Notes under the pieces: model-generated
What the model was told of the DNA's origin: nothing
Databases searched by the model: none
What the model saw: only the letters and a program-made list of their open reading frames with translations
Part shown: positions 49,390 to 61,488 of the stretch, piece by piece
Layout: each line of letters opens with the position of its first letter
Position numbering within the stretch: position 1 is the stretch's first letter
NCBI RefSeq assembly: GCF_001404985.1
Contig: NZ_JRLF01000011.1
Span: 310,001 to 374,000, forward strand
Reading direction: 5' to 3'
Length of the DNA stretch: 64,000 bases
Source: Flavobacterium aquidurense
Lineage (GTDB): Bacteria; Bacteroidota; Bacteroidia; Flavobacteriales; Flavobacteriaceae
Translations under genes and position numbers: made by a program

Positions 49390-50370
49390 GTGAAAATAAT
49401 AGAACACTCATATGGTGCTGACTTGGATTGGGTAAAGCCCTTTGCCAATAAACTTGGAGGAAAAGTAAAAGGGAATTTTATAATAGTACCTGAAGATACT
49501 TTTAAAGGTACAAGGTATTTTCTTGATTGTGGAGATGATATTGTTGCTTATTATGTTGATGTTATGAATAATAAGGATGTCAATTTAGTTCAGAAAAACA
49601 CAAAAAAAGATTTTATTGGTATCTACTACAATATTACTGAAGGTGATGTTAAATATTCCAGTGACAGCTTTGTATTAAATGTAGGACGATGGAAATATAA
49701 CTTATTAGTTATTGACAGTGCACTCGATACAAATTACAAGATTAAGGCCGGAAGCAGGTCGCATGCATTTTGCATTTTTATGAAAAAAACCAGAATGGCA
49801 TATTTTGCCAAAAAGAACAACATTAACTTTAAGAATCTAAACAAAATTACGGATTCCTCTAAGAACACCATTATTCGCTTTGACAGAATGAGTGATGAAA
49901 GTTATCATTTAATAGAGGAGCTGCAAAGGTTTAAACCAGGTGGCCCCATATACGATTTAAACATCAGGGCAACAGTTCATTTGTTGCTTTCTAACTTTTT
50001 TAAAAAGATGTCTGCCACAAGGATCATAATACAAACCGTAAATAAATTAGATCTGGAGAGGATAATAGAGACTCAAATGTTTTTAATTAATAATATTGAA
50101 GAATCTTTTCCTTCTATAGAAACTATGGCATTAAAGGCAAATATGTCTGAATCTAAATTCAAAAATTTGTTTAAAAAAATAACCGGAAAAACACCAAATA
50201 CTTTTTTTATGGAAAATAAATTAATGGAAGCTAAAAGACTACTGGAAGAAAATCAATTTTCGGTATCACAAATTTCAGATAGACTGAGTTTTACAAACAA
50301 CTCTTATTTTGCTTCAAAATTTAAGGCCCATTTTGGGTTATCACCAAAAACATTTGTAAATCAATTATAA
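49390..50370 (+). CDS. AraC-family regulator, first of three related genes (GTG start)
   Basis: A 326-residue cytoplasmic regulator. The first 225 residues form an uncharacterised sensory region beginning MKIIEHSYGADLDWVKPFAN. The last 100 are a double helix-turn-helix of the AraC type (SIETMALKANMSESKFKNLF, MEAKRLLEENQFSVSQISDR, NNSYFASKFKAHFGLSPKTF). The start is GTG at 49390; the conserved N-terminus in its paralogue supports this. It follows the Rnk-like gene by 47 bases and may share its sigma-54 promoter. Ligand and targets are unknown. Confidence 0.85.
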   Translation: MKIIEHSYGADLDWVKPFANKLGGKVKGNFIIVPEDTFKGTRYFLDCGDDIVAYYVDVMNNKDVNLVQKNTKKDFIGIYYNITEGDVKYSSDSFVLNVGRWKYNLLVIDSALDTNYKIKAGSRSHAFCIFMKKTRMAYFAKKNNINFKNLNKITDSSKNTIIRFDRMSDESYHLIEELQRFKPGGPIYDLNIRATVHLLLSNFFKKMSATRIIIQTVNKLDLERIIETQMFLINNIEESFPSIETMALKANMSESKFKNLFKKITGKTPNTFFMENKLMEAKRLLEENQFSVSQISDRLSFTNNSYFASKFKAHFGLSPKTFVNQL

Positions 50371-57299: not shown

Positions 57300-57720
57300 C
57301 CTATCTTATCAGGAATGAAGACACAAGCTGTAACAAACTGGCGAAGCAATCTTAGTAAGTAGCTCGACAACGATTGGAAACTGCTTTTATGGGAATGGAT
57401 TGTGTTATAAACGTTGCGGATCATTGTTGCGGAGATTCTTCGTTCCTCAGAAGGACAAGACTGTGTGGGAAAGGATTGTGTTATAAGTTTTGTGGATAAT
57501 CTTTACTACGAACTGTAATCCCAATATTTGTCATTCTGAGGAACGAAGACACGAGCGATAGCGAACTGGCGAAGCAATCTTAGTTAGTAGCTCGACAACG
57601 ATTGGAAACTGCTTTTATGGGAATGGATTGTGTTATAAACGTTGCGGATCATTGTTGTGGGGATTCTTCGTTCCTCTGAATGACAAGACTGTGTGGGAAA
57701 GGATTGTGTATAATTTTACA
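57300..57720. repeat. Left block of the GAACGAAGA repeat array
   Basis: About 420 bases of repeat units with no credible gene. Each unit combines TTTGTCATTCTGAGGAACGA, GCGAACTGGCGAAGCAATCT, TAGTAGCTCGACAACGATTG, TTTTATGGGAATGGATTGTG and an inverted copy of the first word (GATTCTTCGTTCCTCAGAAG). Two near-complete units lie before the GIY-YIG gene. Region 57136-57299, to the left, shows no repeat or gene and probably holds the promoter of the type B cargo gene. Confidence 0.88.
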
Positions 57721-57749
57721 ACAAGCTGTAACGATAATTTTTCCTGTTT

Positions 57750-58070
57750 TTATTCAAACAAACTGTCCAGAAAGTTCAAATCAGGGTTTATTACTTTTAT
57801 TAATGCTATTTTTTTTGCTCTTGTCCAGCCTTTTATTTCTTTTTCTCTAGCAATTGCTTCTTGAATCCAGGTGAACTTTTCGTAATAAAGTAAAAATTCA
57901 ACATTATATCTCGACGCAAAAGTTTTATTTCCTAATAAGATATTTTTTTTATGTTGTTTTAGTCTAATACTTAGACTATTAGTCACTCCTGTATACAGGA
58001 CAGTTTTTACTTTGTTTGTAATGATATAAATATAATAAGTATGAAATCCTTCGTAAATTAGCATTATCAA
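57750..58070 (-). CDS. Single-domain GIY-YIG endonuclease
   Basis: A 106-residue protein that is essentially one GIY-YIG nuclease domain: TYYIYIITNK and VLYTGVTNSL (catalytic Tyr residues), Arg36 with His40 in RLKQHK, and Glu76 in AIAREKEIKGWTRAKK. All expected catalytic positions appear present. Family members are often annotated as excinuclease C-like or UPF0213-like; their substrate is not known to me. The gene is embedded in the repeat array at 57300-59570 with repeat units on both sides. A start at the ATG two codons inside (58064) is equally possible. Confidence 0.88.
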   Translation of the reverse strand: MIMLIYEGFHTYYIYIITNKVKTVLYTGVTNSLSIRLKQHKKNILLGNKTFASRYNVEFLLYYEKFTWIQEAIAREKEIKGWTRAKKIALIKVINPDLNFLDSLFE

Positions 58071-58112
58071 ATGCAGTCTTTTTCTTTCTTATTTAATAGT
58101 CTACTTAAAAAT

Positions 58113-59575
58113 ATTTTGAGATTGTTTTATAAGTGTTGTGGATAATCGTTGTTGGGATTCTTCGTTCCCCAGAAGGACAAGACTGTGTGGGAAAAGGAAT
58201 GTGTTATAAGCTTTCCGGATCATTGTTGTTGGGATTCTTCGTTAGTAGCTCGACAACAATTGGGAATACTTTTATGGAAAAGGAATGTGTTATAAGCTTT
58301 CCGGATCATTGTTGCGGGGATTCTTCGTTAGTAGCTCGACAACAATTGGGAATACTTTTATGGGAATGGCTTGTGTTACATGCTTTCCGTATCATTGTTG
58401 CGGGGATTCTTCGTTCCTCAGAAGGACAAAACTATCTGGGGAAAGGAATGTGTTGTAAGCTTTGCGGATAATCGTTACTACGAACTGTAACCCCAATATT
58501 TGTCATTCTGAGGGACGAAGACACGAGCGATAGCGAACTGGCGAAGCAATCTTAGTAAATAGCTCGACAACGATTGGGAATACTTTTATGGAAAAGGATT
58601 GTGTTTGCATACTTATCGGATAATCGTTGTGGGGATTCTTCGTTCCTCACAAGGACAAGATTATGTGTAGAGAAGATTGTGTTATAAGCTTTCCGGATCA
58701 TTGTTGCGGGGATTCTTCGTTCCTCACAAGGACAAAACTGTGTGGGAAAAGGATTGTGTTATAAGTTTTGTGGATAATCGTTAATACGAACTGTAATCCC
58801 AATATTTGTCATTCTGAGGGACGAAGAATCTTCGTTAGTAGCTCGACAACGATTGGGAATACTTTTATGGAAAAGGATTGTGTTATAAGTTTTGCGGGTA
58901 ATTGTTGCGGGGATTCTTCGTTCCTCAGAAGGACAAGACTGTGTGGGAAAAGGATTGTGTTATAAGCTTTGCGGATCATTGTTGTGGGGATTCTTCGTTC
59001 CTCAGAAGGACAATACTGTGTGGAAAAAGGATTGTGTTATAAGTTTTGTGGATAATCGTTAATACGAACTGTAACCCCAATATTTGTCATTCTGAGGGAC
59101 GAAGACACGAGCGATAGCGAACTGGCGAAGCAATCTTCGTTAGTAGCTCGACAACGATTGGGAATACTTTTATGGGAATGGATTGTGATACAAACTTTGT
59201 GGATCATTGTTGTGGGGATTCTTCGTTCCTCAGAAGGACAAAACTGTGTGGAAAAAGGCTTGTGTTACATGCTTTGCGTGTAATTGTTACTACGAACTGT
59301 AACCCCAATATTTGTCATTCTGAGGAACGAAGAATCTTCGTTAGTAGCTCGACAACGATTGGGAATACTTTTATGGGAATGGATTGTGTTTGCATACTTT
59401 GCGGATAATCGTTGTGGGGATTCTTCGTTCCTCAGAAGGACAAGACTGTGTGGGAAAAGGGTTGTCTTACATACTTTGTGGATTATTATTGCTGGGATTC
59501 TTCGTTCCTCAGAAGGACAATACTGTGTGAAGAAAGGGGTGTTCTATATGCTTTGCGGATAATTAAATAGTAATA
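58113..59575. repeat. Right block of the GAACGAAGA repeat array
   Basis: About 1.46 kb of repeats. I count around nine copies of GGGATTCTTCGTTCC in it, four forward TTTGTCATTCTGAGG copies and six TAGCTCGACAAC copies. Units vary in length and some are composite (GATTCTTCGTTAGTAGCTCG joins two words). All open frames in it translate the repeat and are not considered genes. Confidence 0.9.
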
Positions 59576-59577
59576 AC

Positions 59578-59610
59578 AAAAAAAGACAGTCTTTTCAAAC
59601 TGTCTTTTTA
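59578..59610 (-). terminator. Terminator of the thioredoxin-like gene
   Basis: AAAAAGACAGT and ACTGTCTTTTT form an 11-bp stem with a short loop and T-run on the minus strand, immediately after the stop at 59618. It marks the right boundary of the repeat array. Confidence 0.85.
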
Positions 59611-60913: not shown

Positions 60914-61488
60914 ATTTTTTATATTGTTTGCAATTGTTATGTTTTGTTTTTTGTTATGTTTTTTGCTATGTTATGTTTTACTATCTTTTTGTTTTGTTTT
61001 TCTTTCGAGTTTCTCACAAAGTAACCACAATCATTGTCATCCCGAGGAACGAGGGATCTCCTTAAGAAACTAACCCAAAGTATTTTTCATTTAATTGTCG
61101 AGCTACTTGCGGAGATCCCTCGTTCCTCGGGATGACAAGATTGCGTGCCTTTCCTTGCGATGACAAAACTGTATCTTTATTACTCGCGATTACAATGATT
61201 GTAGATAAAACTTACAGCATAAACCTTTATCAAAGTTCCTTACACTCTTGATTCATTACCTCAATTCTTGCTTTATCTTATGTACAAATTTTAAAAGCTT
61301 AGTTAAATTTATACTATTTTTACTATTAAAACAAACTAACTTTTAAACACCATACGCTTCTCATCTCTGCTTTAGGGCAGGAAATGAAAAGCGCATGGCT
61401 AAATATTCTATATGTTATTAGGAAGAGTTTTTATCTTTTCTCCTTGATCTTTTTAAAACAAAATCATTAATTTATTATACGTTTTATA
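60914..61488. other. Intergenic region with hairpin elements
   Basis: 575 bases without a credible gene. It has a T-rich GTTATGTTTT repeat stretch (60938-61005), a perfect hairpin element (61034-61138), a CCATACGCTTCTCAT / ATGAAAAGCGCATGG imperfect inverted repeat with a CTGCTTTAGGGCAG inner hairpin (61349-61399), and otherwise AT-rich DNA. Confidence 0.6.
61034..61138. repeat. Perfect hairpin copy of the dispersed TTGTCATCCCGAGGAACGA element
   Basis: The 28-base arms (61034-61061 and 61111-61138) are exact inverted repeats beginning TTGTCATCCCGAGGAACGAG, around a 49-base spacer that contains TTGTCGAGCTACTTGC. The spacer word TCGAGCTAC also occurs, inverted, in the array at 57300-59570 (TAGCTCGACAA), so the element and the array are related. 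Confidence 0.9.

Follow-up and report, generated by a model that had tools for sequence, protein, structure and literature searches.

The window analysed here, 64,000 nucleotides of a Flavobacterium aquidurense contig (NZ_JRLF01000011.1, positions 310,001 to 374,000), contains a small GIY-YIG nuclease gene that lies within an array of inverted hairpin repeats. The open reading frame (57750-58070, minus strand) is intact, with either a TTG start or an in-frame ATG start (Table 1). Its product matches the Pfam GIY-YIG family PF01541 (E = 1.1e-16; score 61 bits, cut-off 22.6), and residues Y15, Y26, R36, H40, E76 and N95 are unchanged across 21 chosen relatives. By this match and the conserved Tyr, Tyr, Arg, Glu and Asn, the window protein belongs to the GIY-YIG superfamily; we take the catalytic role of the conserved residues to be the one known from I-TevI. 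Identity as a group I intron endonuclease was rejected, as the NCBIfam model TIGR01453 gave 19.6 bits against a cut-off of 56. Comparison with solved structures gave nothing significant, the sole matches in the Protein Data Bank up to E = 1 being the UPF0213 proteins 1zg2 (E = 0.18) and 1ywl (E = 0.36). UPF0213/YhbQ-type proteins are like the window protein in size and domain, but the similarity is not significant, and the 84-residue GIY-YIG protein of the same genome (L003) has no such repeats around it.

The repeat core TTGTCATTCTGAGGAACGAA, with up to 3 mismatches, matches the window at 18 places. Of these, 16 fall within 57439-59520, with 5 on the plus and 11 on the minus strand, compared with an expectation of 0 from 100 shuffles. 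Each core copy there marks one end of a unit, and the units form a tandem array. The original prediction of an intact small GIY-YIG gene inside an inverted repeat array was thus borne out, with one correction: the window locus is a tandem array in partial decay, and a cleaner unit lies elsewhere in the same genome.

That genome holds 110 core matches at the same tolerance, and none for the reversed control pattern. Its best-scoring PF01541 match falls on a homologue at C16:49904-50131 (L001) and not on the window gene. The unit that carries this homologue (C16:49743-50268, 526 bp) is bracketed by a single inverted pair, with TTGTCATTCCGAGGAACGAG at 49743 on the plus strand and the identical 20-mer at 50249 on the minus strand. 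The limits given in Table 1 for the gene-bearing unit of the window are our own reading; its ~650 bp may be compared with this 526-bp unit. Two of the six PF01541 matches of the genome are of the hairpin-associated type, and each of these two has repeats to its left and to its right. Within 1.5 kb of the remaining four GIY-YIG genes, no such hairpin occurs.

The genome also contains short non-coding elements made of two inverted hairpins. Among its 22 plus/minus core pairs, we fetched the 20 whose cores lie 70-85 bases apart from start to start; 19 of these elements are 101-105 bp long and one is 90 bp, a length partly chosen by this selection, since the two remaining pairs would be longer (~165 and 194 bp). 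Independent support for a unit of ~101-105 bp comes from one short element of genome G006: used as a query, it hit numerous further sites across 16 relatives, and the matches break off sharply at the borders of the element. By eye, the flanks of the 20 elements look unrelated, and no target-site duplication was seen around them. The same five stem bases stand at both ends in 17 of the 20 (L213-L232), with types differing between copies, and the two arms seem to evolve in concert.

Each hairpin consists of an unpaired TTGTC, a 5-bp stem of the form AT-NNN/NNN-AT, a GA...GA collar and usually a GNA loop. To count covariation, we used a pairing-free pattern over all loci at hand, which yielded 74 distinct hairpins. 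Both three-base variable arms are fully complementary in 83.8% of them, compared with 16% after shuffling (maximum 31%), although the count is not fully independent, because the set includes the loci that first suggested the motif. When each arm pair is counted once, 8 of 19 are complementary, against a shuffled mean of 1.9 (maximum 6). G-C or C-G closes the 5-nucleotide loop in 36 of 42 cases, and GNA forms its middle in 35 of 42.

Table 1 Positions of the nuclease gene, its repeats and related elements in the window
Feature	Position	Strand	Remark
Repeat array, tandemly amplified, partly decayed	57306..59583		5 intact left ends and 11 right ends; spanned by overlapping repeat families
Array left ends, intact	57528, 58500, 58806, 59084, 59312	+	core matches
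Array right ends	57439, 57667, 58161, 58410, 58639, 58716, 58917, 58994, 59222, 59424, 59501	-	core matches
GIY-YIG nuclease coding sequence	57753..58070	-	106 residues from TTG; probable ATG start at 58064, 104 residues; stop codon 57750-57752
Hairpin repeat upstream of the nuclease gene	58156..58180	-	reads into the gene; gene strand TTGTCCTTCTGGGGAACGAAGAATC
Short element 3' of the gene	57528..57686		left end 57528 (+), right end 57686 (-); nested insertion inside
Gene-bearing unit, ~650 bp	57528..58180	-	nuclease gene between the hairpin at 58180 and the outermost inverted end at 57528
Full dimer of the array	59312..59443		single strand folds to one long hairpin, z = -9.8
Separate complete 105-bp non-coding element of the same family	61034..61138		stem type ATCCC/GGGAT; just beyond the stretch first noted (57300-59575)

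To analyse the association among relatives, we took the best 80 loci of the genome collection, all in Bacteroidota and picked by protein similarity alone; they include Flavobacterium, Maribacter, Chryseobacterium, Pedobacter, Hymenobacter, Dysgonomonas and others, with close relatives over-represented. A hairpin was defined here as GTCA, a 5-bp stem with at most one mismatch and a GA...GA collar. At least one TGTC hairpin lies within 450 bp of the gene at 75 of the 80 loci, compared with 57 of 1306 random placements, and an outward inverted hairpin pair brackets the gene at 45, compared with 2 of 1323 placements. Hairpin density within 500 bp is 1.89 per kb upstream (plus strand) and 2.17 per kb downstream (minus strand), and at more than 3 kb from the gene it is down to 0.014 and 0.037 per kb, respectively. 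In a test that aligned the 400 bp upstream to the reverse complement of the 400 bp downstream, the inverted-repeat score exceeded the 95th percentile of 419 random placements at 57 of the 80 loci and the 99th at 48. Enrichment of such genes beside repeats, which the original prediction had put forward as a check, is therefore found both in this set and at 13 of 23 loci outside it (see below). That the association of gene and repeat is real we regard as virtually certain.

The repeat type follows the protein clade, including among paralogues of one genome. On a tree of 82 proteins, the stem type changes 19 times, compared with 43 times after shuffling, and none of 200 shuffles was as low; 8 of the 82 rows carry no stem label, among them the window gene, because its nearest hairpins are decayed. 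Host kinship could yield part of this signal, and paralogues of one genome therefore weigh more. Nine genomes, told apart by contig accession, gave two loci each, of which eight have different stem types and one the same (L096/L115). Six of them split into TTCC and TTTC types (L061/L079, L062/L064, L058/L065, L045/L069, L046/L055 and L039/L066); all TTTC genes of these pairs fall into a single clade, and each TTCC gene belongs to either of two others.

We then turned to more distant groups. A tblastn search with the window protein against a plasmid collection gave 32 records, of which 23 were examined, the remaining 9 being kin of these; the 23 loci are mostly alpha-proteobacterial, and one, from Spirosoma, belongs to the Bacteroidota. 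Under a general definition of the hairpin (CGTCAT or TGTCAT, at least 5 pairs, then C), CGTC/TGTC hairpin copies occur within 500 bp of the gene at 13 of the 23 loci: those of N. gonorrhoeae, Planktothrix, Spirosoma, four Shinella, S. meliloti, Aeromonas, Neorhizobium, a Rhizobium, A. lipoferum and Photobacterium. Across the first 16 loci there are 2.6 hairpins per kb near the gene (42 in 16 kb), compared with 0.24 per kb far from it (27 in 112 kb, 12 of them in Photobacterium). Most proteobacterial loci have a stem of 8-10 bp. The N. gonorrhoeae homologue, presumably Ssn, shares 40% identity over 82 residues and has 11 CGTC palindromes within 500 bp. At six further loci (two Sinorhizobium, N. 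aromaticivorans and three Sphingobium) the two flanks share an inverted repeat with a score of 29-32, where 244 random placements gave a 95th percentile of 17 and a 99th of 32; this pattern was noticed post hoc. The inverted repeats of these six loci contain a palindrome with a variant tag, such as CGTCACCCCGGGCTTGACCCGGGGTCC, and such palindromes are possibly further repeat types with their own nuclease.

Palindromes with the variant tags CTCATTCCTGTG, CGTCGCCCCGTG and CGTCACCCCGGG stand in inverted repeats beside the GIY-YIG gene at L268, L302, L278, L279, L307 and L308. In Planktothrix agardhii (L266, 3992-4276), the GIY-YIG gene and TGTC repeats have an MmeI-type restriction enzyme on one side and the DISARM gene drmA on the other. 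Two records listed as plasmids are of chromosome size, N. gonorrhoeae NZ_CP119140 with 2.17 Mb (L265) and Aeromonas caviae NZ_AP026896 with 4.9 Mb (L271), and are probably mislabelled chromosomes.

Repeat number and gene presence were compared in 249 congeneric genomes, of which 174 have any homologue (E <= 1e-8), 97 of them a close one (E <= 1e-28), and 75 have none. A degenerate hairpin pattern was found in 188 of the 249 genomes, and its reversed control in 4. The median repeat number is 11 with a close homologue and 1.5 in the other 152 genomes; it is 6 with any homologue and 1 without. The partial rank correlation of gene with repeat number after genome size is 0.31 in both cuts. Exceptions aside, the repeats are thus scarcer without the gene. 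Equal numbers with and without it, or genes of this family lying away from the repeats elsewhere, would have spoken against the original prediction, and neither was found.

One may ask whether the pairing merely reflects hitchhiking or ascertainment, with repeats and small orphan genes both gathering in variable intergenic regions. The number of repeats indeed grows with genome size (Spearman 0.60). Such a shared habitat, however, does not explain why hairpin density drops from ~2 to ~0.02 per kb within a few kb, why the pairing is type-specific inside single genomes, why the other GIY-YIG genes of the same genome lack repeats, or why the pairing recurs in other phyla. The explanation is already largely refuted, and we consider it highly improbable.

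Another candidate for the mover is a transposase of the Y1 type, that is, a REP-associated tyrosine transposase (RAYT, where REP stands for repetitive extragenic palindrome) or an IS200-like enzyme, or another transposase, with the repeats as ordinary REP-like elements and the GIY-YIG gene as a passenger. Y1_Tnp matches occur at 4 places (5 matches) in the genome, and the one at C1:59834 has a TGTC dimer ~250-350 bp upstream. TGTC hairpins, however, bracket none of the 4 places and are absent within 1.5 kb of 3 of them (other transposase families were not searched); the place with the adjacent dimer is bracketed by different palindromes of its own, of the GCGCGGATTTGCAATCCGTGC type. Stem type, moreover, tracks the GIY-YIG clade, and PMC3733652 describes transposases flanked by CGTC repeats as few and fortuitous. 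A RAYT was therefore rejected as the main mover, and we judge a passenger role of the GIY-YIG gene unlikely. Since the Y1 gene at C1, ~59834 (L300) is flanked by its own GCGCGGATTTGCAATCCGTGC-type palindromes, two REP-like systems may coexist in this genome.

Orthologous sites with and without the element were then compared, mostly at a flank identity of 80-97%. At site A (query L061:9300-11300 against the 249 genomes), the gene block is present in 6 genomes among the matches listed, with 1-4 tandem downstream dimers. Among 14 unfilled sites fetched from the top of the list, 11 have practically abutting flanking genes and 3 hold some tens of unrelated bases. A 2-nucleotide flank overlap in the BLAST coordinates, considered as a duplication, was not upheld on alignment. 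At site B (query L072:9200-11000; 12 genomes fetched), G110 and G065 hold the gene unit, G239 a short dimer, G158 two TGTC hairpins without a gene match, and G080 a remnant, AAATGACAAGATTGTGG. G232 and G130 have both flanks and no element, and in G101, G224, G205, G118 and G209 only the left flank aligned, with no element in the 300 bp examined. At a third site (L283), the full short element is present in G006, G110, G131 and G086; G080 has an element with a different stem type, and G158, G232 and G239 have shortened versions that retain the element ends.

The gene-bearing loci of F. aquidurense itself were compared in the same way. At the site syntenic to the window array, the neighbours are the same in G267, but the 355 bp that separate the matches contain neither the gene nor a TGTC hairpin. 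In four relatives the gene is absent from the site syntenic to the C16 unit, which is too diverged for exact ends. Elsewhere, sites L284 and L281 gave no clean empty site (the L281 matches were not fetched). As to a transposable element, presence and absence at orthologous sites are clear and may stem from gain or from loss, although no target duplication accompanies them and site A has no left hairpin.

Remnants that keep only the element ends (such as TTGTCATTCC/TCGGAATGACAA) and resemble scars of excision or slippage were observed at L285, L286, L287, L243 (near 1660), L091 (13549), L044 (14430) and L267 (4325). In G136, the neighbour-side stretch near the syntenic site of the window array contains ATCCC-type repeats. 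Within the window array, a second short repeat (~CACGAGCGATAGCGAACTGGCGAAGC) is nested in some left-end hairpins (57548-57575, 58520-58547 and 59104-59131), and strings like it also interrupt hairpins in L078 and L247. One of the genes that flank the nuclease locus of the window has a CHU_C type IX secretion domain and one is thioredoxin-like, and Rfam gave 0 matches at the gathering threshold within the window.

Several findings weigh against a two-part system in which the nuclease moves its own repeats. The 249 genomes are not phylogenetically independent; 9 of the 75 genomes without the gene have at least 10 repeats (82 in G232 and 63 in G206), 11 of the 97 with a close homologue have at most one, and above 5 Mb the three gene-less genomes reach a median of 63, compared with 45 for the 35 that have a close homologue. 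The repeat-rich genomes without the gene may have lost it recently. By the stated definitions, 5 of the 80 and 10 of the 23 loci have no hairpin nearby, and four loci of the R. tumorigenes group show no inverted repeat at all. By nearest-neighbour energies, single 26-nucleotide hairpins are no more stable than shuffles (z = 0.29 and 0.48), but two whole dimers are far more stable (z = -11.9 and -9.8); tandem sheared G.A pairs and GNA loops are exceptionally stable in DNA, which the folding program leaves out of account. To the left of the block at site A the hairpin is missing, and G223, G143 and G076 carry the gene on the opposite side of the same neighbour gene. Target-site duplications were not found at sites A and B, and no transposition was observed. 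The short-palindrome scars are not clearly above control palindromes (83 compared with 67 and 31); as TTGTCATTCC/TCGGAATGACAA scars are real at single sites but without clear excess, we claim no cut position. Finally, by match coordinates the gene at site B is also present in at least G131, G229, G105, G072, G015, G124 and G176, with G006 making at least 10 genomes, so the unit looks inherited with losses, rather than jumping. The original idea of a mobile or repeat-maintaining system is supported by the association and by the scarcer repeats in genomes without the gene; the gene unit itself looks mainly inherited with losses.

The main alternative keeps the pair of enzyme and hairpin and gives it a different job. 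The nuclease would act on the repeats without moving them, either to limit or shape the single-stranded DNA that enters in natural transformation or to resolve hairpins at replication forks, and the repeats would be kept as its marks and spread by recombination and slippage. The inherited look of the site B unit suits this explanation, as do the varying number of tandem dimers at site A and the shortened elements that retain their ends at orthologous sites. Three short palindromes (L044, L286 and L267) break, in our reading, at a repeated stem arm, as slippage would have them do, and Ssn/NTS of Neisseria meningitidis is said to modulate transformation. On its own, however, it leaves unexplained why sharp-ended units of near-constant length stand at many unrelated sites and why gene-bearing units occupy different loci in different species. 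We regard this alternative as rather unlikely.

Part of this relation appears to be known. The Neisseria pair Ssn/NTS reportedly consists of a GIY-YIG site-specific single-strand nuclease and a matching repeat. The two systems share a small GIY-YIG-only protein and a repeated hairpin near the gene as cognate site, and the many genomic repeat copies near the gene agree with what reportedly marks the Ssn family. The present system differs in its Bacteroidota clade, its GA-collared hairpins with mostly GNA loops, its dimers of ~101-105 bp and its gene-bearing units. The original prediction knew of no described link between this nuclease type and such repeats; that statement is probably wrong, judging from the Ssn/NTS pair reported in 2025 (Nat Commun), and the link is accordingly not a new kind of thing. 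Among the top-listed open-licence PMC literature, we found no paper that links GIY-YIG proteins with such repeats.

The repeats themselves belong with a described superfamily of REPs. One of its species, G. forsetii, is a flavobacterium. According to PMC3733652 (Di Nocera 2013), these REPs have a TGTC or CGTC tag (also CCTC) and a stem starting with AT, form mostly head-to-head dimers, and occur in Neisseriae, where the CGTC REPs are equated with dRS3, and in S. meliloti, A. lipoferum, N. aromaticivorans and G. forsetii. The unpaired tag followed by an AT-starting stem is found here too, and palindromes like CGTCATTCCCGCGCAGGCGGGAATCC at the plasmid-collection loci fit the CGTC REPs of that paper. 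Their stem of 8-9 bp with a loop of 4-5 nucleotides, in contrast, is not found in Flavobacterium, where 5 Watson-Crick pairs are followed by the GA...GA collar and a loop closed by 1-2 pairs. That account reports no dedicated transposase beyond the fortuitous cases, and leaves the origin and mover of the repeats unanswered, whereas the flanked gene here encodes a GIY-YIG protein. In the listed literature we found no mention of an identity with the TGTC/CGTC superfamily, of pairing across the Bacteroidota, of paralogues matched by type, or of presence and absence at sites; part of this may already have been described with Ssn.

The original prediction had likened the locus to REP-associated transposases and their repeats, and the flanked nuclease gene, the dispersed dimers and the pairing of type with clade support that comparison. 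To our knowledge, no covalent intermediate is known for GIY-YIG enzymes. RAYTs and their REPINs (REP doublets forming hairpins), the subject of PMC3116915, PMC2817692 and PMC8266576, likewise combine a nuclease gene between inverted hairpins, many non-autonomous dimers and type-clade pairing. The catalytic domain here, however, is GIY-YIG and not a Y1 (HUH) tyrosine transposase. The system thus resembles REPINs in its dispersed dimers, flanked nuclease gene and matched types, without being a RAYT system by its flanked gene.

We then propose how such a pair might work. The flanking hairpin would be the recognition site of the nuclease. Gene-bearing units (~0.5-0.7 kb, with the gene between inverted hairpins) would supply the enzyme, and gene-less hairpin dimers (~101-105 bp) would occupy intergenic sites and depend on this enzyme in trans, in the way that REPINs depend on RAYT. 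When a repeat becomes single-stranded, at a replication fork, in repair or in DNA uptake, it would fold, and the nuclease would nick the hairpin, a step that is reportedly the activity of Ssn in Neisseria. The nick could start excision, copying, or expansion and contraction of the array, and repair or replication from such nicks may make, move, multiply and delete dimers, as the distributions suggest.

Together, our results favour, on balance, a REP/REPIN-like two-part system made of an Ssn-type GIY-YIG single-strand nuclease and its flanking hairpin, with cleavage and spread as inferred steps. Gene and repeat very likely form a functional pair. That the nuclease drives the spread of the repeats has, in our estimate, an even chance of being true; we had placed it slightly higher before a recount found at least 10 genomes with the gene at site B. 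As bordering hairpins and their pairing with the gene recur in distant groups, the enzyme is probably the missing partner of a common short bacterial repeat type, which it cuts and may spread. It is tempting to speculate, if only tentatively, that GIY-YIG nucleases of this kind serve the entire CGTC/TGTC REP superfamily as its general partner, in Bacteroidota, Proteobacteria and Cyanobacteria. They would form a second REP/REPIN system that arose independently. In it, a nuclease acting non-covalently would take the place of the tyrosine transposase, cut a GA-collared DNA mini-hairpin and so replicate dimers across the genome, with self and non-self repeat types set by protein clade.

TGTC/CGTC palindromic repeats are abundant in many bacteria, and a type-matched nuclease partner of ~105 residues makes the question of their maker or mover testable with a single protein and an oligonucleotide. 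Many natural enzyme-hairpin pairs would also be on offer for single-strand-specific cutting. If the reading is true, a REP/REPIN-like economy, in which one enzyme gene serves many hairpin dependants, arose with a different catalytic fold.

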